This document shows positions 1-26,500 of a DNA stretch of 46,601 bases, in pieces. Both the position numbers and the translations under genes were made by a program. Each line of letters starts with the position of its first letter. Positions within the stretch are counted from its first letter, which is position 1. The DNA is from an uncultured Methylococcaceae bacterium. GTDB lineage: Bacteria > Pseudomonadota > Gammaproteobacteria > Methylococcales > Methylomonadaceae. The notes beneath the pieces were generated by a model. The model had not been told where the DNA came from and made no database searches. It saw only the letters and a program-made list of their open reading frames with translations. The DNA lies in the NCBI GenBank assembly GCA_903866825.1, contig CAIPPE010000141.1:1-46601 (forward strand), given 5' to 3'.

Positions 1-28
1 ATATAGTTACCTAATATATTATTAAAAC
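1..28. repeat. Left copy of 28-bp terminal direct repeat
   Basis: These bases are identical to the last 28 bases of the window. The repeat runs straight into the first late promoter box. It shows either a circular assembly (overlap left by the assembler) or a very short physical terminal repeat; the sequence alone cannot separate these. Confidence 0.9.
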
Positions 29-73
29 AGAGGGTCATCTTTCTCACCTCACAGCTACACAAACATACTTTCG
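27..73 (+). promoter_or_regulatory. Late promoter P1 (terminase unit)
   Basis: The 17-bp box ACAGAGGGTCATCTTTC occupies 27-43 and a -7-like element TACTTTCG lies at 66-73, exactly 22 bp further on. Four other copies of the box in this genome have the same spacing. The -7 element fits the Bacteroidota TAnnTTTG consensus at 7 of 8 positions. It would start transcription near 80, giving a leader of about 200 nt before the small terminase gene. That the box binds a phage late activator is inference. Confidence 0.75.
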
Positions 74-95
74 TATCACCCGATATGTAATACAG

Positions 96-212
96 ATGCG
101 GAGAGCGGATAAAACGGCCTGTCGCCAATATGCCCATCTCGCAAATGGATTTCATATTGAATACTCACAATCGCCGGTAAGGGGTGATGATACAACCAGT
201 CAATCTGGGTAG
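96..212 (+). CDS. Possible 38-aa leader peptide
   Basis: An ATG at 96 opens a 38-codon frame ending in TAG at 210. It lies entirely in the leader between late promoter P1 and the small terminase gene. The product is basic and polar (starts MRRADKTACRQY) with no recognised motif. It could be a leader peptide or only chance coding in a structured or packaging region. No function is proposed. Confidence 0.2.
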   Translation: MRRADKTACRQYAHLANGFHIEYSQSPVRGDDTTSQSG

Positions 213-259
213 CTGTCATCCTACTAGTTACGAGGGGAACTAGGGGTGCAGGCGACAGG
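118..259 (+). other. Inverted repeats upstream of terS (structured leader or packaging site)
   Basis: CCTGTCGCC at 118-126 is the exact reverse complement of GGCGACAGG at 251-259. Between them, CTAGTT (224-229) pairs with AACTAG (238-243) across an 8-nt loop. The block lies between P1 and terS, where cos or pac sites commonly are in tailed phages. It may be a folded mRNA leader or a terminase recognition site; the sequence does not say which. Confidence 0.4.
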
Positions 260-277
260 AAATAATACTTACCTACT

Positions 278-751
278 ATGGGAAAAACAAAACTCACGGC
301 TAAACAGGAATTGTTCTGTAATGAATTTCTAAAAGATTGCAATGCAACTAAAGCAGCAATAAGAGCAGGGTATTCAGAAAAGACGGCAGGAGCAATTGGT
401 TGTGAGAACTTAACAAAACCTGAAATACATGCGCGCGTAGAAGAATTGATGGCCAAACGTACAGAACGTACGCAGATTTCAGCAGATTTTGTTCTGAACG
501 GATTGATGATTGTGGCAAAAAGATGTATGACTGCGGAGCCAGTTATGATATGGAATCCGGAAGATAAGGTTATGCAGCAGGCCAAAGATGACAACGGGAA
601 AGACGTATGGACATTCGATAGTACAGGCGCTAACAGAGCGCTAGAACTACTCGGCAAGCATACTGGAATATTCGAAAAAGATAATGCTCAACAGGGGAAA
701 GTAAGTATTGTTATCAAGAAAACACAGCCACTGCAAAGCGATGCGGGATAA
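278..751 (+). CDS. terS: Terminase small subunit
   Basis: This 157-aa protein matches the Terminase_2 small-subunit family. The N-terminal pattern LTAKQELFCNEFL..CNATKAAIRAGYSEKTA forms the DNA-binding helix-turn-helix at about residues 6-40, followed by a helical oligomerisation region (VEELMAKRTERTQIS). The C-terminus is basic and polar and may contact the large subunit. It would bind the packaging site and recruit the nuclease/ATPase. Length is typical. It is the first gene of the P1 unit and its last 11 bases overlap the likely start of the large subunit, so the two are probably translationally coupled. Confidence 0.9.
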   Translation: MGKTKLTAKQELFCNEFLKDCNATKAAIRAGYSEKTAGAIGCENLTKPEIHARVEELMAKRTERTQISADFVLNGLMIVAKRCMTAEPVMIWNPEDKVMQQAKDDNGKDVWTFDSTGANRALELLGKHTGIFEKDNAQQGKVSIVIKKTQPLQSDAG

Positions 752-2186
752 TAACCAGGGTTTATCGATAGAAATTGAAGATGATGTCATCCTGCCTGTC
801 TATAGACATTTGCTTAATGACGCTGAAGACTTTTCTATTGAATTTCTTTATGGCGGTCGCGATTCTGCTAAATCTTATACTACGGCCCAGATACTGATTA
901 TTGAATGCCTTACGCTGTCCTACTTCCGTTGTGCACTTATACGCGATGTATTTGGAACTATAAAAGATAGTCAATGGCAGCTCATACAGGACATAGTAAA
1001 TGATTGGGGTTTATCTGCTTATTTCACATTTACTAAAGCACCACTAGAAATAGTTTGCAAGATAAACGGGAATAAATTTATTAGCAGGGGTTGTGACGAA
1101 CCATTAAAATTAAAGTCAATTACCGCTTGCAATAGAGCCTGGATTGAAGAAGGTGTGAGGGAATTGGATGCTTTCACCGTTATACTTACTACGCTTAGAA
1201 GCACGCAAAGTAAAGTTAAAATTTACTACACTTTTAATCCAGAATGTGAAGGTAATTATGAGAATTTCTGGCTTTACAAAGAATGGTTTGAGCCTAATAA
1301 GACAGAATTATCTTTTTCGAATCATCGCACGTACAAAGTAATAATCCGCGGTGTATTAAAAACAGTGATAATAAAGTACCGGGCCACTCATTCAACCTAC
1401 CATGACAACCCATATATTAGTGATGAGCGTATCGCGTTCCATGAAAATAACAAAGGATATTACTATACAGTATATACGTTAGGTAGGTGGGGATACAAGA
1501 TTACAGGCGGTGAGTTCTGGACAGGCTTTAAGTCAGAAACGCACACTAAACCGTTGGAATATATCAACAGTGCTATACACATATCGCTTGATAGTAACGT
1601 AAATCCCTATGTTTCGTGCCAAATTTGGCAGATAGACACTATTAAAAAACAGCTTCGCCAATATAATGAACTGATATGCTCATCACCAGATAACAGCGCA
1701 AAGAAGGCAGCAAAGAAGCTCATAGCGTGGATGCAGCGCATAGACTATACAGATCCTGTATACATCTATGGTGACGCATCTGCTAACAACAGAACGACAG
1801 TAGATGAAAATAACGGGTCATTCTTTGACAAGTACATTGAAGTACTGGAAGATGAAGGATATCACGTCATTAAGATGGTTGAACGTAGTAACCCGCGTAT
1901 AGCATTATCCGGTGAGTTCATCAATGAGATATTCGAATTGGGTTATGAAGGCTGGACCATAGTCATTAATGACACGTGCCAAGTAAGCATCGAGGACTAT
2001 ACCATGACCAAGAAGGATAAAGACGGTACAATTCTCAAGAAACGTATCACCAACAAGGAAACAGGGCAGTCTTATGAGCAATATGGCCACCTTTCAGATT
2101 GTATGCGGTATCTGGTATGCAGTGTTTTGAAGGATGAATTTGAACAGTTCAGCGATCGTGGGCGTAAAAAGCTGTCATACGCGTAG
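741..2186 (+). CDS. terL: Terminase large subunit
   Basis: An ATP-driven DNA packaging motor and nuclease of the PBSX/Terminase_3 type, about 481 aa. A Walker A variant GGRDSAKS lies near residues 38-45 and a Walker B/catalytic region NRAWIEEG near 131-138. The C-terminal RNase H-like nuclease region has acidic patches HISLDSN, YIYGDASANN and DCMRYLVC. An upstream in-frame start at 708 is possible, but the ATG at 741 overlaps the terS stop and gives the better N-terminus. It cuts concatemeric DNA and docks on the portal encoded next. Confidence 0.93.
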   Translation: MRDNNQGLSIEIEDDVILPVYRHLLNDAEDFSIEFLYGGRDSAKSYTTAQILIIECLTLSYFRCALIRDVFGTIKDSQWQLIQDIVNDWGLSAYFTFTKAPLEIVCKINGNKFISRGCDEPLKLKSITACNRAWIEEGVRELDAFTVILTTLRSTQSKVKIYYTFNPECEGNYENFWLYKEWFEPNKTELSFSNHRTYKVIIRGVLKTVIIKYRATHSTYHDNPYISDERIAFHENNKGYYYTVYTLGRWGYKITGGEFWTGFKSETHTKPLEYINSAIHISLDSNVNPYVSCQIWQIDTIKKQLRQYNELICSSPDNSAKKAAKKLIAWMQRIDYTDPVYIYGDASANNRTTVDENNGSFFDKYIEVLEDEGYHVIKMVERSNPRIALSGEFINEIFELGYEGWTIVINDTCQVSIEDYTMTKKDKDGTILKKRITNKETGQSYEQYGHLSDCMRYLVCSVLKDEFEQFSDRGRKKLSYA

Positions 2187-2192
2187 GAAATT

Positions 2193-2239
2193 ACAGAGGG
2201 TCATCTTTTAAAGTTAGCTATATCTGCAATTTAATTTTA
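2193..2239 (+). promoter_or_regulatory. Late promoter P2 (portal/head unit)
   Basis: Box ACAGAGGGTCATCTTTT at 2193-2209, then TAATTTTA at 2232-2239 after exactly 22 bp. The element fits TAnnTTTN. Predicted start of transcription is about 2246, so the leader before the portal TTG start is only about 16 nt. Confidence 0.8.
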
Positions 2240-2261
2240 CCACCTACAAAAGGCCAAACAA

Positions 2262-3947
2262 TTGGTACTACCACTTACAGCACCAGAAGGACAATTATCA
2301 ATTACTTCTATTCTCAAGGATAATCCCAACAAGCAATATGTAAAGGATATTCAGGAGTATAGCAGTAAGTTGTGTATGCACATTACCGGCCTTAATCTTG
2401 ACAAGTACCTGGCTAAAATAGACTACTTCGAAAAACCGGAGCTATTAGCGCTCCGTCAAAAGTACAGTCCGAGCAATGAGGACTTCTTCGGTAGAATACA
2501 CAGGCCCATAGACAAAATATGGAATGCCTCCGGGGGAAGTGCTAACTACTACATAGCTGAAGACAGCAAGCCTAAACTACTTGAAAAGCTATCTAACGTA
2601 CGCAACGGATACAAGCTACGCCAATGGTTGCAAACATTCTGGTTGATGCCTTCACACTATGATCCCATGGGCATGGTATTCATGGAGGTTGGAAACAAAG
2701 AAACCTATCCTACTTATAAATCTTGCCATGATGTATTTGACTATCCGCAGCCTAAAGGCCGCATTTTCGATTACATCGTTTTCAAGGTAGACAACAAGAT
2801 ATCAGCTGAGAAAGAAGACGAGAGCAAAGCAAATGATATATACTACCGTGTTGTGGATGATGCTTATGACTACCTGATAAAATGGGATGGCAAGAAAGCG
2901 TACATAATTAAAAAAGAAACATTTAAAAACTACTTTGGCTTTGTTCCTGCTATTACCAATGGCGATATATTCGACCCAATAACAAAGCAATACATTTCTC
3001 CAGATGACGAAATCATAGGGATAGCTGACCAGCACTTGCGTGACCGGTCAGTGCTTACCATGTTTAAACTGCATCATGGATTCCCATTGAAATGGTTGTA
3101 TGGTAGTGATTGTCCCACCTGTAACGGCACAAAGAAGGTAGCAGGTAAGAATTGCCAGTCATGCAGTGGAACAGGGAAAAAGAGCAAGTATGATGTATCA
3201 GAAACGATCATAGTACCTTACCCGAAAGCAGGTGACCCGCTCCCAACCTCATACGCAGGATTCTATACACCACCGGTTGAGACGTGGAATAAGATGGACG
3301 AGTCCATTGCGGAACAATACAAGGATGCTCACTATACCAAATGGGGGACAAACCAGCTTGAGGATAGCGATAGTTCCCAGCCAGCTACGGCTACGGGCAG
3401 ATTTATAGATGTACAGCCGGTTAATGATGCCCTCAACAAATACAGCGATTCAGCCGAATATGTTGAATCATGGATAGTTGACATGATAGGTAAGTTCTAC
3501 TTCAAGTCGTATAAGGGTAATGAAATCAACTATGGCCGCAGGTTTCTTATTGAACCGCCTGACGTTATCTGGAAGAAGTACCAGGACGCGCGGACAGCCG
3601 GAGCGCCTACGAGTTCCCTGACTTTTCTGTATATGCAATGGTTGCAGGCCGAGTTCAGGAGCGATAGCGTAGAACTTGGCAAGCAGATAAAGCTGATGAA
3701 GTTGGACACTTTCTTTCATATTTCGTTAACTCAGGCTGGTACCATCATAAAAAACCCCGATGACTACATCAGGAAGCTGTATTTCGAAGAGTGGATAAAC
3801 CAACTGAAGCCTAATGACCTGATCACAAAGACACTAGACGTACTCCGTAAGATGCGCGATGACTTCATGAACAAAAAGATAGCTGAGAACAATAAGATAA
3901 TGGATGAACAGGCTAAGAAGCAAGCGCAGTTAAACATAGCAGCGTAA
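2262..3947 (+). CDS. Portal protein with embedded DnaJ-like zinc motif
   Basis: At 561 aa, directly after terL and before scaffold and capsid genes, this is the expected portal: the dodecameric ring at the capsid vertex through which DNA passes. Its start is TTG at 2262, just after promoter P2. Residues about 284-307 contain CPTCNGT and CQSCSGTGK, two CxxCxG(T/x)G knuckles as in the DnaJ zinc finger, which is unusual for a portal. The C-terminal 60 residues are helical and charged and end in a Gln/Ala-rich tail. Identification is mainly by size and position plus overall pattern, so portal is likely but not proven. Confidence 0.75.
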   Translation: MVLPLTAPEGQLSITSILKDNPNKQYVKDIQEYSSKLCMHITGLNLDKYLAKIDYFEKPELLALRQKYSPSNEDFFGRIHRPIDKIWNASGGSANYYIAEDSKPKLLEKLSNVRNGYKLRQWLQTFWLMPSHYDPMGMVFMEVGNKETYPTYKSCHDVFDYPQPKGRIFDYIVFKVDNKISAEKEDESKANDIYYRVVDDAYDYLIKWDGKKAYIIKKETFKNYFGFVPAITNGDIFDPITKQYISPDDEIIGIADQHLRDRSVLTMFKLHHGFPLKWLYGSDCPTCNGTKKVAGKNCQSCSGTGKKSKYDVSETIIVPYPKAGDPLPTSYAGFYTPPVETWNKMDESIAEQYKDAHYTKWGTNQLEDSDSSQPATATGRFIDVQPVNDALNKYSDSAEYVESWIVDMIGKFYFKSYKGNEINYGRRFLIEPPDVIWKKYQDARTAGAPTSSLTFLYMQWLQAEFRSDSVELGKQIKLMKLDTFFHISLTQAGTIIKNPDDYIRKLYFEEWINQLKPNDLITKTLDVLRKMRDDFMNKKIAENNKIMDEQAKKQAQLNIAA

Positions 3948-3966
3948 ACAATACAAACCAATCTAT

Positions 3967-4425
3967 ATGACACAACAGGACTTTGAAAAACGATTTAATG
4001 ACAGGGTCAGGGCAGAAATTAACCACGTTATATTTCCCTCTGAAAACATCCCAGATGGCCTACGCGACTATTTGACTTTGTCTCTACCAGTATTCACTTA
4101 CCATTCCGTAAAGTGCACATTGGAAGAGTACGAGCAAGTGGCAATGTGGGCAGCTGATGGAGGTGAAATGCCTATGATCACAGCATTCATTGCTTTGCAG
4201 ATTACGCGCGGTGTATCAGCCAAAGACATTGGTGTAAATCCGGTCGTCTACATCGAAATGAATAAGCTGCTGGATGATATGTCCCTTGCCTGGGATGTAA
4301 TTGTGAAGCCTACAAAGGAGCGCATTAACCGGGAACTTAACGAAGAGTTTGAAAGAGAGTATAAGAAACAGCAAGCAACTCAGGCGCTGAATAGGAAAGG
4401 TATTAAAATACACCGCCCGAATTGA
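3967..4425 (+). CDS. Head-module protein, unknown function
   Basis: A 152-aa, mostly helical protein between portal and scaffold genes. It has no signal peptide or membrane segment. The last 50 residues are strongly charged (PTKERINRELNEEFEREYKKQQ), suggesting a coiled coil. It overlaps the next gene by four bases. A head-assembly role is inferred from position only; no family was recognised. Confidence 0.7.
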   Translation: MTQQDFEKRFNDRVRAEINHVIFPSENIPDGLRDYLTLSLPVFTYHSVKCTLEEYEQVAMWAADGGEMPMITAFIALQITRGVSAKDIGVNPVVYIEMNKLLDDMSLAWDVIVKPTKERINRELNEEFEREYKKQQATQALNRKGIKIHRPN

Positions 4426-4622
4426 TCAATATTGATAACAAATTCGACATTGGTCAGATCGTATATCTGAAAACAGATCCTGAACAGTCCGGTCGAATGG
4501 TTATTTCAATTATCGTGAATAAGTATGATATTCTTTATGAAATGATCATCGGTACATCTACATCAAGACACTATGACTTTGAAATAACAGACACCGCAGA
4601 CATTTTACAAAAAGTCAATTAA
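4422..4622 (+). CDS. Small beta-rich protein, unknown function
   Basis: A 66-aa protein starting with TTG, which overlaps the TGA stop of the preceding gene (TTGA). The pattern DIGQIVYLKTDPEQSGRMVISIIV resembles small SH3/KOW-like beta-barrel proteins often seen in phage genomes. The tight overlap supports a real, coupled gene. The following stretch (4623-4782) holds only frames shorter than 20 codons and no clear signal. Confidence 0.6.
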   Translation: MINIDNKFDIGQIVYLKTDPEQSGRMVISIIVNKYDILYEMIIGTSTSRHYDFEITDTADILQKVN

Positions 4623-4782
4623 ATATATGTCGCAATTTACTGGATATAAAATTAAATACATCGTTACGCCTAAGCAGATGTGAAGGCTATGCAGGTTTGT
4701 AAAAAGTGGATTCACCATGTTTAATTTAAAGAAAAAAGTAAAGAATTTCTCATTATAAAATCAATTCATAAAAATACAAATC

Positions 4783-5130
4783 ATGGCAAAAAAAGATGAA
4801 TTAATAGTTGACCAGCAGGCAGCTGAAAACGCTAATAAAAGCTACAAAGAGTGCAAACTGACTGTCGAAACAGTTATGGAACCACAACAGGATGGAAGCG
4901 AGAAGCTAAGCCACTACGTGATGGAGCCCGGCAAAGTGATTAAAACAGTAAAGATCGAGCCGCATCGTGCACAGCAGCTTAACAGAAGTGCGCATACTCG
5001 TAAAATCATCTACCTGCTGGAAAGTGACGAGATGCCGGCCAAGATACATCGTTCATACAAGTGGGATAAGTCGGTGAAAGATTTTCTGCTCGTTGATGAG
5101 TTCATAAAGGAGGGAGCGCCAGCGCAATAA
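4783..5130 (+). CDS. Head-module protein, unknown function
   Basis: A 115-aa soluble, charged protein with ATG start. It begins MAKKDELIVDQQAAENANKSY and ends in an acidic tail. It lies immediately before the scaffold-like gene in the P2 unit and so is probably made with head proteins. No recognised domain; a minor head or assembly function is only inferred from location. Confidence 0.65.
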   Translation: MAKKDELIVDQQAAENANKSYKECKLTVETVMEPQQDGSEKLSHYVMEPGKVIKTVKIEPHRAQQLNRSAHTRKIIYLLESDEMPAKIHRSYKWDKSVKDFLLVDEFIKEGAPAQ

Positions 5131-5170
5131 TCACCACTAAAAACATATCGTTAACTACAAACTATATTTT

Positions 5171-5989
5171 ATGATAAGCAAAAAAACAGCTGAAGCATTA
5201 GGTAAAAAACTACACATTGACCCCGTAAAACTTAAAGCCGCCATCGACGACGACAAAGAAGTGGATATTGATATCCCTGATGATGTTACCGTCTTTACAA
5301 AAGATGAGATTGCCACCAGGGATAAGGTAAAATATGACGAGGGCAAGACCGTTGGTGTAGAAACTGCCGTTAAGGACTTCAAAAAAGCTAAAGGCCTTGA
5401 CTTTAAAGGAAAAGACCTCGAAAGCCTGCACGATCACCTCAGCACTAAAGGAGAGGATAAAGAAGTAGTTGAAAAGCTGCGTACCTCTGTAACCACGGCA
5501 GAGCGTGAGCGAGACGAAGCCCGTGCAGAAGCTGGCAAAATACGCCTGCAATCAAAAATAGAGTCGTTTATTCCAGAACTGAACAACGGTATGAACAAAG
5601 CCGAAGCCTTGAGCGTACTGCAGGCCAATGGCTATGACTTCAAAGAGGAAGGCGGCAAAGTAGTTGCTTATCGCAATGGTGAAAAAGTAAAGGACGGCAA
5701 GCTGCAAACCGATGTGGCACCTGATGTAGAGATCAAGCGTTTCCTGGGTGAGGAAAAGAAGTGGTTGGGAGAAGCTGACGATAACACAGGCGGTACAGGT
5801 GGCCGCGGTGGTGCAGATAGCAGACCAAAGCCTAAACCAGTCTACACGAAAGCCAGCGAGGTAGAAAAGGCTTTCAATGAAAAGCATGGCGCTGGTGCAT
5901 CAATGGGAACTGAGCACGACTATGCTGGTCACCTGCAGAAAGTGATGGAGGAAGCCGAAAAGGCCGGCACACCTTTAGTAATGGATTAA
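5171..5989 (+). CDS. Scaffold-like capsid assembly protein
   Basis: A 272-aa, highly charged protein immediately upstream of the major capsid gene. Residues about 90-135 (EDKEVVEKLRTSVTTAERERDEARAEAGKIRL) form a predicted coiled coil. A Gly-rich linker (GGTGGRGGAD) separates a C-terminal helical segment. This composition and position are typical of scaffolding proteins that nucleate the procapsid and then leave. The gene is the last of the P2 unit and is followed by a strong terminator. Sequence families of scaffolds are poorly conserved, so the call rests on composition and context. Confidence 0.7.
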   Translation: MISKKTAEALGKKLHIDPVKLKAAIDDDKEVDIDIPDDVTVFTKDEIATRDKVKYDEGKTVGVETAVKDFKKAKGLDFKGKDLESLHDHLSTKGEDKEVVEKLRTSVTTAERERDEARAEAGKIRLQSKIESFIPELNNGMNKAEALSVLQANGYDFKEEGGKVVAYRNGEKVKDGKLQTDVAPDVEIKRFLGEEKKWLGEADDNTGGTGGRGGADSRPKPKPVYTKASEVEKAFNEKHGAGASMGTEHDYAGHLQKVMEEAEKAGTPLVMD

Positions 5990-6013
5990 GATTGTTTTTC
6001 ATAGGGTTTGTAG

Positions 6014-6041
6014 GGCGGTGTATTCTTACACCGCCTTTTTA
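6014..6041 (+). terminator. Intrinsic terminator after scaffold gene
   Basis: A perfect 9-bp stem GGCGGTGTA (6014-6022) / TACACCGCC (6027-6035) with loop TTCT is followed by TTTTTAT. It ends the P2 unit just before late promoter P3. Confidence 0.88.
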
Positions 6042-6050
6042 TTTGGAATT

Positions 6051-6097
6051 ACAGAGGGTCATCTTTTTAGTACCGCCTTTAATGGTCAATATTTTTA
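6051..6097 (+). promoter_or_regulatory. Late promoter P3 (capsid/tail unit)
   Basis: Box ACAGAGGGTCATCTTTT at 6051-6067 and TATTTTTA at 6090-6097, spacing 22 bp. It follows a strong terminator directly, so capsid and tail genes have an independent promoter. The leader to the capsid GTG start is about 100 nt and contains a small hairpin (GAGCA / TGCTC near 6130). Confidence 0.8.
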
Positions 6098-6207
6098 CAG
6101 CGGAAATCAGGATACGCATTTCCAGGTATGACAGAGCAAGATACTGCTCAAGGTAATTCCCCGCACCAAGATACTGGCTGCAACATTTTTTCTAACTCCT
6201 TAAAACA

Positions 6208-7239
6208 GTGGCAAATTTCACTCCTTCTAATCTTGTGGCCGCACAGACGCGCCTCCAGAAGAAATTTACAGCGCCCGAAAGCCGTGAGAAAGTTCTCCCC
6301 GCTTTGAAATTGGGCCTTTCAAACTCAGGTATCCTGATAAAAGATGCTAACAGCATCAGAACACGAGAAGATCGTACAGTAACGGCCTATGCGCTCAAAC
6401 GTCAGTCACGCGTACCGGCATCACAGCGTACAGCAACGCATACCGGTAACTCTGGCGACTCTATGAGCATGCCTTTGTCATGGGCCACATATGCTGACAA
6501 CTTCAGTATCTCACTGAAAGAACTGGACAACAACGTATTCTCATGGCAGGAAGCCTTCGACCAGAATTTAATGAACTGCATTCTGAACATTCATGCTCAG
6601 ATAGAAACAGATTTCGTTACTTATCTGCTTGCACAGCGTACACAGGTTGTTAAGACAACTACTCCGATAGGCAACCGCGTAACATGGAACGCTGGCAACT
6701 ACACACATGAGATCGCATCCGATGACTCAAAGCAGTTCTTCCAGTTGGCTAAACAGGTAATGGCCGCTAACTATTACAACAACGGTACGTTCGATTGTAT
6801 CAGTGGAGGTAATACCTATGTGAATGCCTCTTTCTGGGCTGCACAGGGCAACGAGAATGCGCAGAATACCGCCTTCCAGTTCACCGGCATGAACATAGCC
6901 TACTCAACAGATCTTTCTGATGGTAACTATGTAAATGGCGTATCGCTAGTAATGGCTCCGGGTACCGCGGCTCTTATCGACTGGATTCCTAAGCAGAACC
7001 GTACAGGATATGGTGACTATAACAGTTATCTGGGTGGATACGGTTCATTCAAAGACCCATACGGTAGCGGCCTGACATTCGCAGTACATGCGTATGCTCT
7101 GCGTACCGATACATCTGGCCTCAATGGTGTGCAGCAGGATAATATGATGCAGTTTGAAATATCTGTAGATGTGGCTCAGGCTATCACACCGTACAGCACA
7201 CCGAACGAAAGCAACGTGTACGAATACGCACAGATGTAA
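6208..7239 (+). CDS. Major capsid protein
   Basis: A 343-aa protein right after the scaffold gene, with GTG start. The N-terminal third carries arginine-rich and polar stretches (TVTAYALKRQSRVPASQRTAT), the middle is Asn/Tyr/Gly-rich, and the C-terminus has the beta-rich pattern usual for HK97-fold capsids. It forms the icosahedral shell. Placement after portal and scaffold and its own promoter fit a highly expressed structural protein. The fold is inferred from context rather than a diagnostic motif. Confidence 0.8.
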   Translation: MANFTPSNLVAAQTRLQKKFTAPESREKVLPALKLGLSNSGILIKDANSIRTREDRTVTAYALKRQSRVPASQRTATHTGNSGDSMSMPLSWATYADNFSISLKELDNNVFSWQEAFDQNLMNCILNIHAQIETDFVTYLLAQRTQVVKTTTPIGNRVTWNAGNYTHEIASDDSKQFFQLAKQVMAANYYNNGTFDCISGGNTYVNASFWAAQGNENAQNTAFQFTGMNIAYSTDLSDGNYVNGVSLVMAPGTAALIDWIPKQNRTGYGDYNSYLGGYGSFKDPYGSGLTFAVHAYALRTDTSGLNGVQQDNMMQFEISVDVAQAITPYSTPNESNVYEYAQM

Positions 7240-7289
7240 TTCTAAACGATCAAGCAACAATATTCATAACTCATAAAAACTAAAATAAA

Positions 7290-7772
7290 GTGAAAAGACT
7301 ATTAATCTTACTGGCATTTACCTGCACCTTCTTAGGTGGGGTAATTGCACAGTCAACGCGATCAGGAACCCTGATACAGGTGAATGGATCCGGCATAACA
7401 AAGACGGCTGACACGCTGACGAATACGGATACGAACTATGTATGGAATGGCCGTACAGACAACTACCAATGGAACGTGACTATGCAGTTTAAAAACACGC
7501 AACTCACTGGTGCGTGTACGCCATCTATGGTAGTACAGGGAAGCGATGACGCTACAAGCATGCTCACCGGTAACTGGTACACGCTTAAAAATTACACCAC
7601 CCAGACGGTCGGGTTATCGGATACAGGCAAGGTAACTAATACGACCTACCTATTCCAGATACCGAATTGCGAATACAAATCTGTTCGAGTCAGGACGATA
7701 ACCTCCGGTACTCAGACAAGTGTAACGTCCGGCAGCTTCTGGATGTGGTCGCCTTTTGTGAAAACTCTATAA
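7290..7772 (+). CDS. Secreted-type beta-rich late protein (signal peptide)
   Basis: A 160-aa protein with GTG start and a clear Sec signal peptide: positive MKRLL, hydrophobic core ILLAFTCTFLGG, cleavage near VIA-QST. The mature part is Thr/Ser/Asn-rich and beta-strand-rich (ADTLTNTDTNYVWNG), resembling small capsid-decoration or adhesion-like proteins common beside capsid genes of Bacteroidota phages. A signal peptide is odd for a protein expected to join virions in the cytoplasm. It may instead act in the host envelope. Function not established. Confidence 0.75.
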   Translation: MKRLLILLAFTCTFLGGVIAQSTRSGTLIQVNGSGITKTADTLTNTDTNYVWNGRTDNYQWNVTMQFKNTQLTGACTPSMVVQGSDDATSMLTGNWYTLKNYTTQTVGLSDTGKVTNTTYLFQIPNCEYKSVRVRTITSGTQTSVTSGSFWMWSPFVKTL

Positions 7773-7784
7773 TAACTACCTGCA

Positions 7785-9541: not shown

Positions 9542-9561
9542 CCATTAAATTATAATATAAA

Positions 9562-10557: not shown

Positions 10558-10570
10558 TTTCATAACAATG

Positions 10571-10608: not shown

Positions 10609-10610
10609 TA

Positions 10611-10847: not shown

Positions 10848-10849
10848 TC

Positions 10850-11323: not shown

Positions 11324-11404
11324 ACCATGAGCAATGCACAATCTGATATTCATCCTCAAAATAATAGGCTATATACTGGCCATAATATTCATTCTTGAAT
11401 TTAT

Positions 11405-11632
11405 ATGCAGATGGATAATGTACAAAAGATGTCCTGTCCTGATTGTATTCGACAGGATCAGGAACACCAAAAAAGAAAACTGGATGCGCTTATACCGCGC
11501 TTTTGCAAAGAAGCTGGTAAAACGTTTGCCATCATACGTTCAAAAAATGATAACCCCGGCTACATGTGGCGGGAAATCGGGCATCCAGACTGCAAGAGGC
11601 TCGGTGTCGTACTCTATTATATCCAACCTTAG
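11405..11632 (+). CDS. Small CxxC protein upstream of tape measure
   Basis: A 75-aa polar protein beginning MQMDNVQKMSCPDCIRQD, then charged helix and a beta hairpin (KTFAIIRSKNDNPGYMWREI). The CPDC knuckle and layout resemble small CxxC proteins of Bacteroidota phages. It lies in a different frame from a longer overlapping reading frame (11334 onward) that would give a membrane segment. I prefer this frame because its composition looks like a real soluble protein, but it is not certain. Confidence 0.5.
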   Translation: MQMDNVQKMSCPDCIRQDQEHQKRKLDALIPRFCKEAGKTFAIIRSKNDNPGYMWREIGHPDCKRLGVVLYYIQP

Positions 11633-12188: not shown

Positions 12189-12194
12189 GATGTA

Positions 12195-15100
12195 ATGGCA
12201 GCGGATAATGTAGGGTTAATTAATGAGATTGCCGCTCCGGAGGCTTTAGCGCAACTGCAAACTATAGTTGATAAAACTGCAGAGGCAGATGCGAACATGT
12301 CTCACCTGATAACTACCTGCACCGGCTTATCGGGCGCCTTAAAATCATCTAATAACCTGAATGATTTTGCCAATAACCTCAATCAGGCTAATGATACCAC
12401 CGGGCAGCTTAATCCAGCAATGGCCACGTTAACGCAGAACGTTACGCAGCTGAACGTGGCAAGCCAGACATTTACCCAAAGTCAAATAAAAACAGCTCAA
12501 AGCATTTCCGATACCAAGGATGAGATTGCAAGGCTTACTACCCAGATGGAAGCCTATAAAAAGGCTCAGGCGAACCCGTCACAGTCAGCAGATGGGTTTA
12601 AAAAATTAGGCGACACTATTAATGACCTGAATACTAAAATAGCAGCATTGAATGCAAGGCTATCAAGTTCTCAGGCTTCTTTAACTCAAACTGCCGTTAA
12701 GATAGATAGCACCACTACATCATTTAAGTTGCTAGGGGTATCTATGGAGAGTATGCAGAGCATTTTTGGACGTATGATCTTAAGAATGTCGGCATATGCC
12801 CTTCTTTTGGAACCCGCTATTATGGGAGTAGGCAAATTGAAGGATGCTATATTGGAAAGTATTCCCGGCACAGACGAATATATTAAGAAAATAGAAAAAA
12901 CAACCGCAGCAAACAAGGACCTCACAAAGTCATTCGAGGATTTAACCGAAGCTGTTTCAAAATACGATGAAGAGCAAAAACTCATAGATGCTGATGGGAA
13001 TTACGATAATACAGTTGCCGGACTAAAAAGAAAACTGGATTCGGTCAAAGCGATTGGCGTTGTTCAAAAAGCGGCTTTTGATGCGGAAACTCAACAACTT
13101 GCCGCAGCTCAGGAAATGAGGGAAGCAGAATTAAAAACCCTTGAGGATAAAAAGTCTGTAATTGATCAGACTAAACAGCTATTCGACCAGGTAAATAAAG
13201 TATCATCTGACTTTGTAAACAGGCCAGATATCAAAGCACTGTCTGCCGGTGGAGATCCATCAAAAAATAAGAACGTTCAGTATGAACTTTTCAATAAACT
13301 GAATGCCGCTGTTCAGGGCGGCAATATACCGGACGGTATTAAGAGCGAATTGTCTCTGCAACTTCAAAAGGGCTATGATGATGGAGGTAATTTACTTAAA
13401 ATACTCACGGACACGCTCAGGAAGTATTCTGTGCAGTCCGCGCAAGTAAATCAGGAGATATCAGATAAGAAAACACAGATAGAAGTAGCACAGACTGAGT
13501 ATGAGGCCAAAATCAGAAATATTAAGTTCAATAAATCTATGGACCTTGAAAAGCAGCTTGCGCAAACGCATGAGCAGTTGCGCCAATCTAGTGAGAAAGA
13601 AGATGTTGAAAGTGTTGATAAGGTCGTGAATGATACTCGGGCAAAGTATGCTCTGCTTGCAGCTGATATCAGTCGCAACCGTGAAGCGTATCGCCTTTCC
13701 GTGACTACAAAAGAGAATGTTGGGTATGTAGATAAAAATACAAAAGCTTACGACAGGTTATTATCTACGCTTCGAGCAATTGGTAATCAGGAACAAAAAA
13801 ACCTTTCCTATGAGCTTACACGGGCACAAGCTAATAACACCATCAACGTAGGCGCAGGGCTGGCAGGTAGCGCCGCTGGTATAGCGCAAGGAAATGCGGC
13901 TTTCGGTGTGCCGGACTATAATAAGATGGCTGCGGCCCAGTCACTGGAAACGGAAGCTAAAAAACAGGCCTTAATTGTTCAGTTCAATGAATTGGCTAAT
14001 ACTATTACCGACAGCGACCAGATTATAGAGGCTCAAAAGCAGCAAGATGAAAAATTAAAACAGATTGATGAGGAGGCATATAAAGATCGTCTTGCGCTGG
14101 CTACTGACTATTTCAATAAGATTGCTCAAAAAATCAACGGCGAAACTGCTAACAACCTGACAGAGGACCAGCGCCGCCACTTTGACAATCTGACCGCATT
14201 ATCTAAAGGGTCAAACTTCCTTGGTGCGCGCGACCGCGCAGAGGACAGGGAAAACAATGCCTTTACGCGTTCGCAAGCAAATATCAACATACAGGGTATA
14301 AACTCACAACTACCAGCAGCTCAGGAAGCATTTACCCGCGCTGATAATGCTACAAAGGGGCCACTATCCGCAAATGCTTTGGCTGAAGCTCAAAAGCAAA
14401 GGGAATTAGCAAAAGGTGTTCTTGATGATTTATATAAGGATAAAGCAGAAAATGAGCATAAAATTGCTGATATAGATAAGCTTGAAAAGAAAAAGAAGCT
14501 AAAGCAGCTCAATGACCTGAAAGATGCGGCCATACAAACAGCTCAAGACACGGCAGCAGCCGTAAAGCAAATACAGGATAACCAGTTTGCCGCTGAACAA
14601 CAGCAACTGCAGATCAAGATGCAGGCTCTTGAAAATAGCAATGAGCAAAAAATACAAGCTATCAATGCAACTGCAGGTTATCAAATCAGTAAGGATAATG
14701 CTTTAGCAAAACAGGCGGCGCAGTTTGCGGCTCAACAAAATGCCATACAAAAGCAAGAGAATGAATTAGCACTTAAAAAAGCCAAGGCAGATAAAGTAGC
14801 GGCCGAGGCATCGGTTGTAATGAATACAGCGATAGCAGTTACTAAGATATTGGCCAATGATGCTTATGACCCTCCTGTTGCCGCTGCATTGGTTGCACTT
14901 ACCATTGCCACGGGAGCCGCCCAATATGCCGCAGCAGCTTCTACACCATTGCCTCAGTACCGTTATGGTACATCCGCTACACATACACCGTTCTTTATTG
15001 CCGGTGAAGCGGGTGAGAATGAGTGGATTAAACCTGTGGGCAAACCCGGTTACTGGTCTGGTACCACAGCCAAGATATTCCATGAGCCGCTTGGTACGTC

Positions 15101-15335
15101 TGTAACACCTATCCATAAGATCACAGAGTTTGCCAATGCGAATGTCAGCCATACCTATGGAAAAATTGAAGCTAAGGATAACAGCGCAAAGGAAATGGCA
15201 ACGTTGATTGGTGAAAAAATTGAAAAGTCGAATGCGGAGGTAGTATATGCCCTGTTAAGGTCAAAAAACATTACGCCGCCAGTGATTATCAATAACAGCA
15301 CCAGCGAAATAACATTCAAAATAGGAAGAAAATAA
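12195..15335 (+). CDS. Tape measure protein
   Basis: At 1046 aa this is the longest gene, with extended coiled-coil and Ala/Gln/Lys-rich segments: SDTKDEIARLTTQMEAYKKA near residue 100, a long helix at about 430-560 and AAEQQQLQIKMQALENSNEQ near 800. Short hydrophobic stretches at about 190-215 (ILRMSAYALLLEPAIMGVG) and about 880-920 (VVMNTAIAVTKILANDA) fit membrane-active parts of tape measures. It sets tail length and helps DNA entry. The length implies a siphovirus tail of roughly 150 nm by the usual 1.5 angstrom per residue rule. Confidence 0.88.
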   Translation: MAADNVGLINEIAAPEALAQLQTIVDKTAEADANMSHLITTCTGLSGALKSSNNLNDFANNLNQANDTTGQLNPAMATLTQNVTQLNVASQTFTQSQIKTAQSISDTKDEIARLTTQMEAYKKAQANPSQSADGFKKLGDTINDLNTKIAALNARLSSSQASLTQTAVKIDSTTTSFKLLGVSMESMQSIFGRMILRMSAYALLLEPAIMGVGKLKDAILESIPGTDEYIKKIEKTTAANKDLTKSFEDLTEAVSKYDEEQKLIDADGNYDNTVAGLKRKLDSVKAIGVVQKAAFDAETQQLAAAQEMREAELKTLEDKKSVIDQTKQLFDQVNKVSSDFVNRPDIKALSAGGDPSKNKNVQYELFNKLNAAVQGGNIPDGIKSELSLQLQKGYDDGGNLLKILTDTLRKYSVQSAQVNQEISDKKTQIEVAQTEYEAKIRNIKFNKSMDLEKQLAQTHEQLRQSSEKEDVESVDKVVNDTRAKYALLAADISRNREAYRLSVTTKENVGYVDKNTKAYDRLLSTLRAIGNQEQKNLSYELTRAQANNTINVGAGLAGSAAGIAQGNAAFGVPDYNKMAAAQSLETEAKKQALIVQFNELANTITDSDQIIEAQKQQDEKLKQIDEEAYKDRLALATDYFNKIAQKINGETANNLTEDQRRHFDNLTALSKGSNFLGARDRAEDRENNAFTRSQANINIQGINSQLPAAQEAFTRADNATKGPLSANALAEAQKQRELAKGVLDDLYKDKAENEHKIADIDKLEKKKKLKQLNDLKDAAIQTAQDTAAAVKQIQDNQFAAEQQQLQIKMQALENSNEQKIQAINATAGYQISKDNALAKQAAQFAAQQNAIQKQENELALKKAKADKVAAEASVVMNTAIAVTKILANDAYDPPVAAALVALTIATGAAQYAAAASTPLPQYRYGTSATHTPFFIAGEAGENEWIKPVGKPGYWSGTTAKIFHEPLGTSVTPIHKITEFANANVSHTYGKIEAKDNSAKEMATLIGEKIEKSNAEVVYALLRSKNITPPVIINNSTSEITFKIGRK

Positions 15336-15336
15336 G

Positions 15337-18042
15337 ATGGCATCAATCAACATACCGGACATAAAGATTTATCTTATAAACCCTGTAAATGGGGAGTTTT
15401 ACTATGCTACACAGGCGGGAGACGGGACCTATACCATAAGCAGCACACCTGATGAAAGGGCTATAATTCATCTTCCCATCGATTGGCAGGGAACAAAAGT
15501 AAAGTGGCAAAGGCATCCGGAATATCTGGGTATGTTCCGTAGCCAGGGGCAGACATTCAGGTTTGTAAAAGATGCGCGCGCTATTCTCATGGAGCTTTAT
15601 TATGCTTCAGGAGGATGGATACAAGCTAAATGCAATATGCGTTTTGATGTATTCATAGATGTGAATGCCGGATATGAGACAACTTATACCTCTCAGATCA
15701 ATTTTGCAGAGGTAGACGATGAGAAGTCATCACCTGATTATGGTGGTACCGGTGGAAATCAGATAGATCAGGGAGAATTTTCAGTTTCTACGCTTGATTC
15801 TGAATTATTTGAACTGGTGCAAGCATATGGCCCTACTAAATTCAATATGCCAATCTGGAAGAATACTGGTACAACTGAAGCCCCGGTGTGGGTTCCGTAT
15901 GACGATGTGGATTTTGTGCTGCATAATGGTATCAAATTGCTCTATCAGGCTAACTACATAGGCGCGGCTACACCAGACAACATTTTATCTTATAGTGGCC
16001 AAAGAGGATTTAATAATGGTAATCATGGTACAGGTATAAACATTGGGTTTCATACAATACCTAATATGAATCAGTACAGTATCACCCAAAACAACGGTAC
16101 TACGACATTCATAGGTAATGATATTCTCAACAACATCATTGTACAAGGCAATCAAAGTCCCGGAGCCGGAGCAATAGTTAATGAGGTAAATTTTGATGGA
16201 ACGAATAACTCCAACCCTTTTACGAAGAACAACTACTCTATAAAAAATGTATTACCTACATCAGATGGATTTATAGAAATGAATATTGCCGTCTCTGGAC
16301 AATTTAGCGGTAATATTTCGTATCATATCTCTGGTGCGCCAAGTAGTGTATTTTTAAGAATCGTATTGTTTGAAATAGGGCCTAATGACATATGTACGCC
16401 TCAAATTGGTTTCCCTGGCCTATTTAACTATAAGGAATTGTACACGCTTGAGTTGCCAACTAGTGGAAGTGGAGACCCTATAGTAATCACACCGCTGCCA
16501 TTAAGTAATGGTAAGTTTGATTCATTCAATGATAATGTAAGTTTTCAGATGAAGGATAACATGGCTTATGTGATGGGTATTATTTTTGACGGTGATATTA
16601 CATCCGAAGCATGGATTATAGATTATGCACTTTCCGACTTACGGTTAAGTGTATTTTCAAAATACGATAGTGGAGCAAGCGGCGTGCCCATACCCGCACC
16701 CACACTAAATGCGACAATGTTCCCGGCTATGGGGCTGAGCGCTTTGCTGAAAAGAATAGTTCCCAACCTTGCTACTACGAATACCGATGGATGGGGATTC
16801 CCTCTGCCAATAGTAGACAACCCTTATAGTGGCGTGTCAACGTTTCTGGATTCTACTGATCCCATTGGCGATTGCGTGCCTAAGAACATAAAATTATCAT
16901 CCTCTTACTGCGTGCACGACTTGCAGGGGCAAAGCTACATATCTATGAGCCTGAATCAGCTATTCATGCTCTGCAAGTTTCAGCTAGGCTGCGGACTGGC
17001 TATAAAGGATAATACTGTAGAAATTGAACGTCTTACGCATTACTTTGATAAGGACACAATGATACTGGACCTTGGAAGCAACGTAGCGAAAATGAAGATA
17101 AGGCCATTCAAGGACATGGCCGGGTGCAATCTGGCGCTGGGATATAGTAAGGCAGAAACAAATAGTGATTTTGGCGTAGATGCTTTCATTACGCAGCTAT
17201 TTTTCAATACGCCACTAAGTAAAACACCGCAAACTATAGAGTGGGAAACTAACGATGTGCTATTTGAACAATATGCCATAGAAAAAATAAGACAGCAAAG
17301 GGTAAACCAACCGATAGGAGCGGGCTATGACCCGGCCAGCCCAAGTAGTGATAACCAATGTATAGGATTCTATTGTTCGCCTTCGACCGTTACACCCGAC
17401 AGGTCTCTATATCCTTATGACCCCTCCAATAACCCCGTTGTAGATGCTCCCTATGCAATATCAATCTACCCAGTGTTGCAGCGAAACGGGAATCCTTTAT
17501 GCGGCGGTATCCCGGCAGCACAAAGTACCGACCCGACAGCGGCCACGCAGCCATATATATACGGCATGTACTACCCTGATAGCGCCATCAATGTAGAGTT
17601 GTCTCCCTGCAGGGCTTTTCAGAGAGATGGCGGCGCATTGCTACATTCGGTATTGGATGAAATGGATGATGAATACTTGGTATTCAGAAAAACAGCCATT
17701 ATCCAGTACAATAACACCCTGTCTGACCTTGCCAGCATTCAAAGCAACCTGAATATTGGTGCTGGCGGGTCGGTGACGACAGAGTTTAAAGACGTGGCCA
17801 TAAATTCATTACCAACAAAGCTATTCAGGCCATTCATAATTGATCTTGAAACTGTAACAGGGGTGAACACCTATAATGCAATAAACGTAAATCCTAACGG
17901 CTATGCAAGATGGGTGTGGAAGGGCATAGAATGGAAAGCGTTTTTATGGATGGTAGAGAATGATATCGCAGTTTCGCAACCAACAACCATGCAACTTATT
18001 TGCCACCCTGATATTACTAACGCTCAGATAAAGAGGGCTTAA
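15337..18042 (+). CDS. Large distal tail protein
   Basis: A 901-aa protein starting one base after the tape-measure stop, the usual place of distal tail/baseplate proteins. The N-terminus (IKIYLINPVNGEFYYATQAGDGTY) is beta-rich, with Gly/Asn-rich loops through the middle and a Pro/Tyr/Asp-rich section near residues 660-760. No signal peptide. It probably forms the tail tip that carries the fibre. Its stop overlaps by four bases the stop of a gene on the other strand. Family not recognised. Confidence 0.65.
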   Translation: MASINIPDIKIYLINPVNGEFYYATQAGDGTYTISSTPDERAIIHLPIDWQGTKVKWQRHPEYLGMFRSQGQTFRFVKDARAILMELYYASGGWIQAKCNMRFDVFIDVNAGYETTYTSQINFAEVDDEKSSPDYGGTGGNQIDQGEFSVSTLDSELFELVQAYGPTKFNMPIWKNTGTTEAPVWVPYDDVDFVLHNGIKLLYQANYIGAATPDNILSYSGQRGFNNGNHGTGINIGFHTIPNMNQYSITQNNGTTTFIGNDILNNIIVQGNQSPGAGAIVNEVNFDGTNNSNPFTKNNYSIKNVLPTSDGFIEMNIAVSGQFSGNISYHISGAPSSVFLRIVLFEIGPNDICTPQIGFPGLFNYKELYTLELPTSGSGDPIVITPLPLSNGKFDSFNDNVSFQMKDNMAYVMGIIFDGDITSEAWIIDYALSDLRLSVFSKYDSGASGVPIPAPTLNATMFPAMGLSALLKRIVPNLATTNTDGWGFPLPIVDNPYSGVSTFLDSTDPIGDCVPKNIKLSSSYCVHDLQGQSYISMSLNQLFMLCKFQLGCGLAIKDNTVEIERLTHYFDKDTMILDLGSNVAKMKIRPFKDMAGCNLALGYSKAETNSDFGVDAFITQLFFNTPLSKTPQTIEWETNDVLFEQYAIEKIRQQRVNQPIGAGYDPASPSSDNQCIGFYCSPSTVTPDRSLYPYDPSNNPVVDAPYAISIYPVLQRNGNPLCGGIPAAQSTDPTAATQPYIYGMYYPDSAINVELSPCRAFQRDGGALLHSVLDEMDDEYLVFRKTAIIQYNNTLSDLASIQSNLNIGAGGSVTTEFKDVAINSLPTKLFRPFIIDLETVTGVNTYNAINVNPNGYARWVWKGIEWKAFLWMVENDIAVSQPTTMQLICHPDITNAQIKRA

Positions 18043-18533
18043 TTTGATTCGTAACCTACGGTAGAATATACTCCAGTAAAGTTCCATGAATCAGGAGTAC
18101 TACTAAAAGCAGATTGCTTATACATACTAGTTACGCCCTGAATGAAATTTCTATGCAAATAACCTATAAGGTGGTTTGAGGTATCGGATATTTGATTGCA
18201 GTAAAGCAATAGCCGCCTATATGGCGTAACCCCAAAACTTACAGTAGTGTCGAATAAAATTGTATCGACAGCCCGATAGTTAAATGCATAATTTATACTG
18301 TATGACTGAAAAGTTTCTGTTATTGTGTTGTTGGAATGAACAACTATTGTATCCGGGTATAGGTTTCCAGAAATAGAAGATCCAGCAATCCAGTATTTCT
18401 TCTCGTACTTAAACCCGATGCTATCCCATATCTGGGACGATGAAAGATGCGGATAGTCTTGCGGATTTGATGCGGACTTATGGCAAGAGCTGAACAAGCA
18501 TATTGTGGCGGTGATAAGTAAGAGTGTTTTCAT
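18039..18533 (-). CDS. Lipoprotein, probable moron
   Basis: A 164-aa gene on the strand opposite to all surrounding late genes. The N-terminus MKTLLLITATICLFSSC is a lipoprotein signal with lipobox LFSSC, so Cys17 would be lipidated and the protein anchored in the host envelope. The mature part is Ser/Tyr/Asn-rich and beta-prone. It has its own promoter with an operator-like inverted repeat at its start, predicting near-leaderless mRNA. Orientation, private promoter and lipoprotein signal fit a moron expressed in lysogens, for example for superinfection exclusion. That function is inference. Confidence 0.75.
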   Translation of the reverse strand: MKTLLLITATICLFSSCHKSASNPQDYPHLSSSQIWDSIGFKYEKKYWIAGSSISGNLYPDTIVVHSNNTITETFQSYSINYAFNYRAVDTILFDTTVSFGVTPYRRLLLYCNQISDTSNHLIGYLHRNFIQGVTSMYKQSAFSSTPDSWNFTGVYSTVGYESN

Positions 18534-18534
18534 A

Positions 18535-18568
18535 ATACAAATGTATCAATTTGTATGCCAAGTTGCAA
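18535..18568 (-). promoter_or_regulatory. Moron promoter with operator inverted repeat
   Basis: On the - strand the -7 element TACATTTG (18545-18538) is a perfect TAnnTTTG, 19 bp after TTGC (18568-18565) as a weak -33. An inverted repeat ATACAAAT-N6-ATTTGTAT spans 18535-18556 and covers the -7 element. The start codon is only 5 nt past the -7 element, so the transcript should be leaderless or nearly so. Repression by a phage or host regulator is inferred. Confidence 0.65.
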
Positions 18569-18594
18569 TTCTCAAAAAATAGCCAAAATAAATA

Positions 18595-18641
18595 ACAGAG
18601 GGTCATCTTTAAGCGTAGGGTATTAACGTGAAGGTACTTTG
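18595..18641 (+). promoter_or_regulatory. Late promoter P4 (distal tail unit)
   Basis: Box ACAGAGGGTCATCTTTA at 18595-18611, followed at the same 22-bp spacing by GTACTTTG (18634-18641), where TTTG aligns with the other promoters. Predicted transcription start is about 18648, at or next to the ATG at 18649. It restarts late transcription just past the opposing moron gene. Confidence 0.72.
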
Positions 18642-18648
18642 CAGTAAG

Positions 18649-19788
18649 ATGGCTCTGACTTATCCTACCTTAACTTTCCCATGCAGCGTAAACTCCGTTC
18701 CGTTCTACCCTGCTACATACATGCGCAGGCCATCTGATGCCATGATCAATTGGGGACAATCTGCATACATAGATAGTCTGTTGCAATGGCAGTCATTTTT
18801 GCCTTATGAAAACAAGAGGCTGTTCACCGACACAATTACATTGCAATTCAAAACACAAAAAAACTCTACAGTTTACAACGATACACCAACAACGTTTAAC
18901 TACGTAAATCCAGCTAAATTGTATGTGTGTAATTCTGCACCCGGCCCAAACGGAGTGCCGGTTCCAGGAGCAATTGTAGCTGGGTTTACGAGCGTACTCA
19001 ATGCACCGGGCACACTTTACCCCAATAGATATAATCTTGTTTCCGGTTCTCAGTTTTGGGGCATACAGCAACCAGCTTATGATATATATACCGACCCGAT
19101 AACGGGCAATACCGTCCCGTTGACTACGTACATGTATTCTTTCACCTTCGGGGATGTGCTATCGCCAACTACAGATAGCGGTGTGTACTTTCTGAGATTC
19201 GACAATGTGGATGTAGATGGTGGCATATTTACAGAGTACAGCGAACCAATACTTGTATATGGTACAGATGCTAAAGTGGCGTTCCCCAACACCCTATATT
19301 TCGAGGCTACGAACAGGGTAAACAAAAATGATATCATCATTGATAATTGGTTTAACCATCCATCAGATACGGCAGTATTCACCAACCGCGTAGAAGCCTA
19401 TATACTGGAATATGAGCCGAAGGGCATCTACATGGGATTCCTGCAACAATCGTATGAACCGCTGACTACCTTCAATAAGTCATGGAAAGTCTGGAACCTG
19501 AGCATCGGAGGGGTGGATATAGGAGTGCCAGCTACAGAGTTTGAGATCATTACCAAGATAATGGAAATGGATCTTATTCTTATCAACAACCAGTACTACA
19601 ATTACGACATTCAGACCGGCGGCTCTCAAAACCCTGCCGCTGCATGGAAAATGGATAAGACAAGATACAAGGGACTGTTCACCGGCACGCTGCCTATCAG
19701 GTATAGGTTTGAGAACCAATTCTACATAGGCAGTCCTATAGCTATGCCGCATATATTCGATGGCACATTTGGCGGCCCATTCAGTTAA
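18649..19788 (+). CDS. Tail-associated structural protein
   Basis: A beta-rich protein of about 379 aa (MALTYPTLTFPCSVNSVPF...). A GTG at 18628 would add seven residues, but it overlaps the -7 element of P4, so a transcript from P4 can only use the ATG at 18649 and would be leaderless. Pro/Tyr/Thr-rich sequence with YEPKGIYMGFLQQSYEP fits a baseplate or fibre-base protein. It sits alone between P4 and P5. No family recognised. Confidence 0.65.
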   Translation: MALTYPTLTFPCSVNSVPFYPATYMRRPSDAMINWGQSAYIDSLLQWQSFLPYENKRLFTDTITLQFKTQKNSTVYNDTPTTFNYVNPAKLYVCNSAPGPNGVPVPGAIVAGFTSVLNAPGTLYPNRYNLVSGSQFWGIQQPAYDIYTDPITGNTVPLTTYMYSFTFGDVLSPTTDSGVYFLRFDNVDVDGGIFTEYSEPILVYGTDAKVAFPNTLYFEATNRVNKNDIIIDNWFNHPSDTAVFTNRVEAYILEYEPKGIYMGFLQQSYEPLTTFNKSWKVWNLSIGGVDIGVPATEFEIITKIMEMDLILINNQYYNYDIQTGGSQNPAAAWKMDKTRYKGLFTGTLPIRYRFENQFYIGSPIAMPHIFDGTFGGPFS

Positions 19789-19790
19789 TT

Positions 19791-19837
19791 ACAGAGGGTC
19801 ATCTTTTAAGAGGTAGTATAGCCTGATTTTACTTTTG
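19791..19837 (+). promoter_or_regulatory. Late promoter P5 (fibre/lysis unit)
   Basis: Box ACAGAGGGTCATCTTTT at 19791-19807 and TACTTTTG at 19830-19837, a perfect TAnnTTTG, 22 bp further on. The box begins two bases after the upstream stop codon. Start of transcription near 19844 leaves a leader of about 10 nt before the fibre ATG. Confidence 0.85.
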
Positions 19838-25664: not shown

Positions 25665-25686
25665 TTATTTATTGCCTATATTCTAT

Positions 25687-26491: not shown

Positions 26492-26500
26492 TGTTCTGTT

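Follow-up and report, generated by a model that had tools for sequence, protein, structure and literature searches.

A five-copy box at the late promoters of a Bacteroidota phage: a putative site for a phage-encoded activator

How are the late genes of a Bacteroidota phage switched on together? The question is raised by a 46.6-kb stretch of DNA (the window, meaning the whole stretch analyzed), contig C141 of a 4.28-Mb assembly, in which a 16-bp element, ACAGAGGGTCATCTTT (the box), is present in five invariant copies, all on the plus strand. Because the contig ends share a repeat of 28 bp, we take the window for a circular phage contig; the host of the phage is a member of the Bacteroidota. An earlier note on this DNA had described a 17-bp box at positions 27, 2193, 6051, 18595, and 19791. 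All five copies were confirmed, but the invariant part is 16 bp long: base 17 is T in three copies, C in the copy at 27, and A in that at 18595. The box is probably the binding site of a phage-encoded late activator, a putative role suggested by its sequence context.

A shared box ahead of five late gene units

Neither strand of the whole window gave a sixth copy of the 17-mer, even with 3 mismatches allowed, and the chance expectation for such matches was a mean of 0.15 with a maximum of 2 (100 dinucleotide shuffles). Every copy is intergenic (5/5), as the earlier note had it, against a non-coding share of only 5.2% of the window by the open reading frame (ORF) rule used. That rule placed the box at 6051 within a 55-codon ORF, which is taken to be spurious; the true setting of this copy is between the genes at 5171-5989 and 6208-7239. 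Similarity among the 30 bases upstream of the boxes did not exceed that of shuffles (p 0.44), nor did similarity among the spacers between box and promoter element (p 0.28). It is therefore the box itself that is held constant and under selection, and the five copies are not recent duplicates of a larger cassette.

All five boxes head late units, in agreement with the earlier claim. Box 1 (27..43, plus strand, as are the other four), which lies complete at the circular junction, precedes the gene for the small terminase subunit (278-751; PHROG E 4.5e-40), and box 2 (2193..2209) precedes the portal gene (2262-3947; PHROG E 3.8e-39). Box 3 (6051..6067) stands ahead of the capsid gene (6208-7239), whose product is a capsid-like virion protein (PHROG E 1.3e-26); its homologue in phage Pan5 carries the annotation major capsid. 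Box 4 (18595..18611) is followed by a 386-aa late protein (ORF 18628-19788), and the first ATG past its promoter element, at 18649, is in frame with this ORF. Box 5 (19791..19807) precedes an 811-aa protein and a gene run that closes with an endolysin (5e-32). No PHROG match was obtained for the 386-aa or the 811-aa protein; for the labels "distal tail" and "fibre", position alone lends plausibility.

Downstream of each box lies an element resembling the -7 element of Bacteroidota promoters, on the plus strand: TACTTTCG (66..73), TAATTTTA (2232..2239), TATTTTTA (6090..6097, conserved in two relatives), TACTTTGC (18635..18642), and TACTTTTG (19830..19837), the last an exact TAnnTTTG. The distance from the box had been given as exactly 22 bp; this is so in four of the five cases, but it is 23 bp at 18595, so that near-fixed is the better description. 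An exact TAnnTTT at 22 bp is found in 3/5, TACTTTCG and TACTTTGC being the two that deviate, and a count by eye of the fixed positions of TAnnTTTG gave 5, 5, 5, 4, and 6 of 6 for boxes 1 to 5 (with 23 bp used for box 4). When the 60 bases 3' of each box were shuffled 20,000 times (mononucleotide shuffles), neither this agreement in spacing nor a looser one, with all five elements at neighbouring spacings, was ever reached.

The -7 element of Flavobacterium johnsoniae is described as T-12 A-11 ... T-8 T-7 T-6 G-5, and transcription begins 4 or 5 nt downstream of it (PMC6847099, in its accessible part). With the T of the window element set at -12 and the start 4 to 5 nt past the element, the box runs from about -51 to -35 with its center near -43. 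It thus sits just upstream of the -33 position, as the earlier note had it, or overlaps that position. None of the five late promoters in the window has TTTG 17 to 22 bp before the -7 element, and none has TTG either. TTTG is kept by two promoter-like sites near early-region genes of the same phage, at 45162 and 46511. The first (TTTG-N21-TATTTTTG, 45162..45194, plus strand) is the canonical-looking promoter of the candidate gene 45215-45499 and is overlapped by a palindrome read by eye, TTTTGTAATAAAATTACAAAA (45161-45181); the second (TTTG-N19-TATATTTG, minus strand) has a palindrome, also seen by eye, around 46500. Three further matches of the TTTG/-7 scan in the window (35322, 43468, and 9320) were not assigned to promoters.

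The late genes lie on the plus strand. The small terminase subunit (278) comes first, the large subunit, portal, capsid, and a tape-measure-like protein follow, and the run closes with the endolysin (24020-24484); a single small ORF among them (18039-18533) is on the opposite strand. The genes from 24641 to 43492 are on the other strand, and a repressor-like region lies near 44171-45138. A terminator-like hairpin (6012..6037, plus strand) is found just upstream of box 3; as 20 kb contained 22 such sites and shuffles 16.2, a single hairpin is weak evidence. The serine recombinase encoded at 24641-25582 matches positions 1-103 of the 145 of the resolvase catalytic domain profile and may be incomplete. 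ORF 38386-39648 contains a 12-bp tandem repeat (39246-39343), which is translated into an alternating ASVRASVG run.

Late promoters in related phages

Relatives were collected as 152 loci through TerL, portal, and capsid searches, overlapping loci being counted. None of them has the box at up to 3 mismatches followed by TAnnTTT at 18 to 27 bp; the 19 box-like copies that they contain have 3 mismatches each and never fewer. The assembly from which the window comes holds no other copy at up to 1 mismatch and two at 2 mismatches, the same as a reversed control pattern. Among the 311 genomes of the order the exact box occurs in one, which is this assembly, and in none of the other 310; among 237 genomes of the family, eight have one stray match each at up to 1 mismatch, besides the phage itself. 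No close DNA relative of the window was found among phage records, and a TerL scan of IMG/VR with a single protein query gave no near relative. The same assembly also contains an 8.4-kb contig (G000:C163, L031) that is part of a second, distant phage of the group (portal 32% identical), and it has no box at up to 3 mismatches.

Three further leads were rejected. The exact 16-mer occurs once each in 17 stretches of IMG/VR, 10 of which have one common flanking sequence, but always within ORFs of at least 60 aa and never with TAnnTTT at 19 to 26 bp. A 13-bp core with TAnnTT at 20 to 25 bp gave 29 single matches, all inside ORFs. An 8-bp core, GGGTCATC, with TAnnTTT 22 to 30 bp further on, was found on the minus strand in 12 loci of one relative group; the seven that were located lie antisense inside the portal gene.

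The earlier note had named absence of the box before late genes in all related phages as a refutation of its proposal, and taken literally such absence is what the 152 loci give. We do not count this as disproof, since a different box is shared by some relatives at these same late units; the regulon appears to be restricted to this phage as far as we searched. The proposal of an undescribed late regulon of a Bacteroidota phage is partly supported, namely in its late units, its geometry, and the lack of a description in the literature searched.

The capsid promoter allows the closest comparison. The nearest relatives found are G237:C24 (locus L109, portal 74% identical) and G238:C52 (L110, portal 69%), both with a capsid 81% identical; the position of box 2 is taken up in both by a TerL-portal junction with an 11-nt gap or an overlap. 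When the capsid promoters of the window, C24, and C52 were aligned, the -7 element and a leader, CGGAA..CA.GATACG...TTCC, were conserved, and the sequence above the -7 element was much less so. At this place C52 has TTAGTCATGCCTAA, a TTAG palindrome, followed by TTTTG 18 bp before the -7 element; C24 has TTTTTG alone, 21 bp before it; and the window has the box. Because the promoter core is common and the module above it is not, we read the window box as the late switch of one lineage. The pattern TTTG-N17..22-TAnnTTT was present within 250 bp before the capsid gene in 12/23 relatives, compared with a mean of 0.55 and at most 4 in 200 shuffles. These 23 comprise 20 of the 68 loci of one of the searches, mostly the more similar ones, together with L111, C24, and C52; near-duplicates such as L126, L127, L129, L130, and L132 and the rest of the 68 were set aside.

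The conserved capsid leader of the window (6102..6149, plus strand) starts just past the -7 element and contains two hairpins with the loops AGGATAC and AAGATAC. The capsid leaders of L037, L131, L134, L138, L140, G237:C24, and G238:C52, like that of the window, have one to several short hairpins in which the stems differ and the loop is AAGATAC or near it. A strict rule, itself shaped on some of these leaders, found such a hairpin in 8 of 44 capsid leaders; shuffled sequences gave a mean of 0.34, and random stretches taken from the same loci gave 0.9 (of 42). No Rfam match was obtained for the leader at E values up to 1. The leader may be an uncharacterized regulatory RNA of capsid genes.

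The other shared box is the palindrome TTAGNCNN[GA]NCTAA. In L125 and L126 it precedes the small terminase gene, the portal gene, and the capsid gene, and in L035 the portal gene; in C52 it is found before the capsid gene and twice before a unit that encodes a 116-aa protein together with the large terminase subunit. The main sites lie 30 to 33 bp before the -7 element, and the rule was widened to include TAATATTG, the -7 element on the terminase side of C52. L125, L126, and C52 gave three matches each, against 0.07 to 0.12 in mononucleotide shuffles, the pattern having been shaped on some of the sites then counted. The set resembles that of the window in that one box stands ahead of late units near a -7 element, and differs in that the sequence is another one and palindromic and in that 8 of the 10 rows listed retain TTT(T)G at -33, the two rows without it being those of the terminase-side promoter of C52. 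We regard the TTAG palindromes as a probable parallel late regulon of the relatives. An IMG/VR scan for the palindrome with a -7 element returned 32 stretches, 13 of them within ORFs, and stray matches occur at 29538 of the window (inside ORF 29174-29611) and at 4601 of Pan5, neither at a box. The lead came from a search for recurring words before TAnnTTT in relatives, which was too noisy until it was confined to non-coding sequence; other leads, TGTAAAGGTAA in L036 and TACAACGCC in L077, were dropped.

The TTAGNCNNGNCTAA palindromes in the late promoters of L125, L126, L035, and G238:C52 resemble sites of DtxR-family metal regulators; late transcription in these relatives might sense metal status. 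G238 has a single match to PF01325 (DtxR), which lies on contig C70 rather than on the phage contig C52, and two virus records, which may be fragments, have none. On the terminase side of C52, the TTAG-box promoter is followed first by the gene of the 116-aa protein (L123:7256-7606, minus strand), which weakly matches an antitermination-Q-like family (E 1.1e-4).

Phage Pan5 (L028, ON968456.1) is recorded with the cyanobacterium Pseudanabaena as host, and its TerL is 51% identical to that of the window. Phages of Polaribacter and Bacteroides are among the further portal matches, and ATAGATTTTATCTAT is common to the portal promoter of Pan5 and a locus of a Chitinophagaceae assembly. The host label of Pan5 may deserve a check.

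Possible readers of the box

Several late units that share one site at a fixed distance from a host-type core are what is seen at activator-dependent phage late promoters, and here the upstream core element is also poor (TTTG in 0/5). That the copies keep a single orientation and nearly the same spacing speaks for contact with RNA polymerase and hence for an activator rather than a repressor. The box has no significant dyad symmetry (p 0.2), so a monomer or a strongly asymmetric site is possible. We infer that the box binds a protein, that this protein activates, and that the phage encodes it; the last point is suggested by the host genome, which holds the box no more often than chance would give. 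In the proposed mechanism, the activator would bind at about -51 to -35 and recruit host RNA polymerase, standing in for the missing -33 contact; the Bacteroidota primary sigma factor in that polymerase would recognize the imperfect -7 element, and the five late promoters would be switched on together.

The best candidate is a 94-aa protein (45215..45499, plus strand) with a subthreshold match to the DnaA C-terminal helix-turn-helix (E 0.013, 16 bits, cut-off 31.5). Its gene adjoins the repressor genes and has the canonical-looking promoter described above, overlapped by a palindrome; we name it as our best guess for the activator, tentatively, and it is more probably the wrong gene than the right one. 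Its only homologue among phage records, 201 family genomes, three relative genomes, and IMG/VR was its own copy. PDB sequence searches with three candidates gave no match below E 0.18. The earlier note had listed genes at 43800, 44171, 45215, and 36145 as candidate activators. Those at 43800, 36145, and 45215 drew no match above the curated cut-off, and 44171 (44171..44455, plus strand) looks like a Cro/CI-type helix-turn-helix protein; the S24-peptidase part of a repressor lies at 44662..45138 (plus strand). The two repressor parts are in separate ORFs across 44171-45138 of the window; G238:C52 has both in one 237-aa ORF.

Several observations weigh against a phage activator at the box. The -33 motif of F. 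johnsoniae is far less evident than its -7 element and weakly conserved even at host promoters (PMC6847099, accessible part), so its absence from the window promoters is weaker evidence than it looks. By the rule applied to the 23 relatives, 11 also lack TTTG at -33, and the 12 with it include three (L135-L137) that are closely related to each other. Profile, PDB, and homologue searches of the candidates matched the predicted activator to no phage gene, and a single-sequence fold of 45215-45499, all-helical, is unreliable (mean predicted local distance difference test score, 44.9). Finally, apart from the rejected IMG/VR stretches, the phages and genomes searched gave no second carrier of the identical box, which is therefore not itself conserved.

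Among the alternatives, appropriation of the host sigma factor survives best, although we judge it unlikely: one phage protein would remodel sigma and a second would read the box in place of the -33 element, in the manner of T4 AsiA and MotA. The lack of a significant dyad, the fixed distance to a host-type -7 element, and the overlap with the -33 side would all suit such a pair, and T4 middle promoters do retain the host -10 element while the MotA box replaces the -35 element (PMC2988021, accessible part). The center of the box, however, is near -43 and not -30, and no relative of MotA or AsiA, nor of Mu C, was found in the 40 of 62 listed window ORFs that were scanned, where divergence could hide one.

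Slightly less likely again is that the box is the operator of a repressor that silences the late promoters in a prophage. The phage has repressor-like genes. In relatives, the palindrome ATAGATTTTNTCTAT occurs near or inside promoters (L111, L135-L137, Pan5, L058, and L096). It looks like a repressor site where it lies between -33 and -7 ahead of the capsid gene, as it does in L111 and L135-L137; L135-L137 and Pan5 have it on the opposite strand as well. An autoregulating repressor would be expected to have a target at the immunity region, but no box is found there, and the palindromes at 45161 and around 46500 are different sequences. Nor does a repressor need the single orientation and single spacing that the boxes keep, and the insignificant dyad speaks against it too.

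Recognition by a host regulator is highly improbable, as the box is confined in its own genome to the phage contig at up to 1 mismatch and has no exact copy in the other 310 genomes of the order. We give as little credence to a box that serves packaging, replication, or recombination, or that is a mobile snippet spread by copying, and lies near promoters by chance: a (partial) serine recombinase is present and AATT directly precedes the box in three of five copies, but the near-fixed distance to the -7 element holds in 5/5, the flanks are otherwise unlike, and all copies are in direct orientation.

On a wider view, the late promoters of this group may be plug-in sites, in which the core (-7 element and leader) is inherited and the upstream module is swapped together with its regulator. 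Phages with capsids about 80% identical would then use unrelated switches, and the activator of the window would belong to an undescribed family and stand in for the contact that the unusual Bacteroidota sigma factor makes at -33. This wider reading is possible, but we think it somewhat less probable than its contrary.

Comparison with known systems

In the literature searched (by title and abstract start, with subscription journals mostly outside its coverage), no late activator site was described for Bacteroidota phages. The timing of late transcription is known for crAss001, whose late genes are likely transcribed by host polymerase, with the role of the phage polymerase subunits left open; no shared late box is named in the accessible part of that report (PMC8375218). 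In the present phage the regulon, its site, and a short list of candidate regulators are all on one 46.6-kb contig, and the homologous capsid promoter of three related phages, with three upstream modules, makes a natural series for the replacement of promoter control. A phage activator working with a Bacteroidota sigma factor, if true, would be a useful switch in these bacteria.

The T4 middle promoters are similar in that a phage box replaces a host upstream element and one box serves many promoters. The MotA box is centered at -30, 12 ± 1 bp from the -10 element, and tolerates changes (PMC2988021, accessible part). The window box falls outside that definition: it lies at about -51 to -35, 22 to 23 bp from the -7 element, is invariant over 16 bp, and would work with another sigma factor.

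Also similar are the late promoters of Mu (lys, I, P, and mom), where a few promoters with non-consensus elements share an upstream activator site and protein C binds upstream of or over the -35 position. C is drawn as a dimer (PMC4461284, accessible part, for these points), which differs from a box without a significant dyad.

The standard Bacteroidota promoter (TTTG / TAnnTTTG) differs from the late promoters of the window, which in 5/5 cases are without TTTG at -33 and have the box added. The likeness is in the -7 element, which resembles TAnnTTTG and has no G at the two inner positions (accessible part of PMC6847099).

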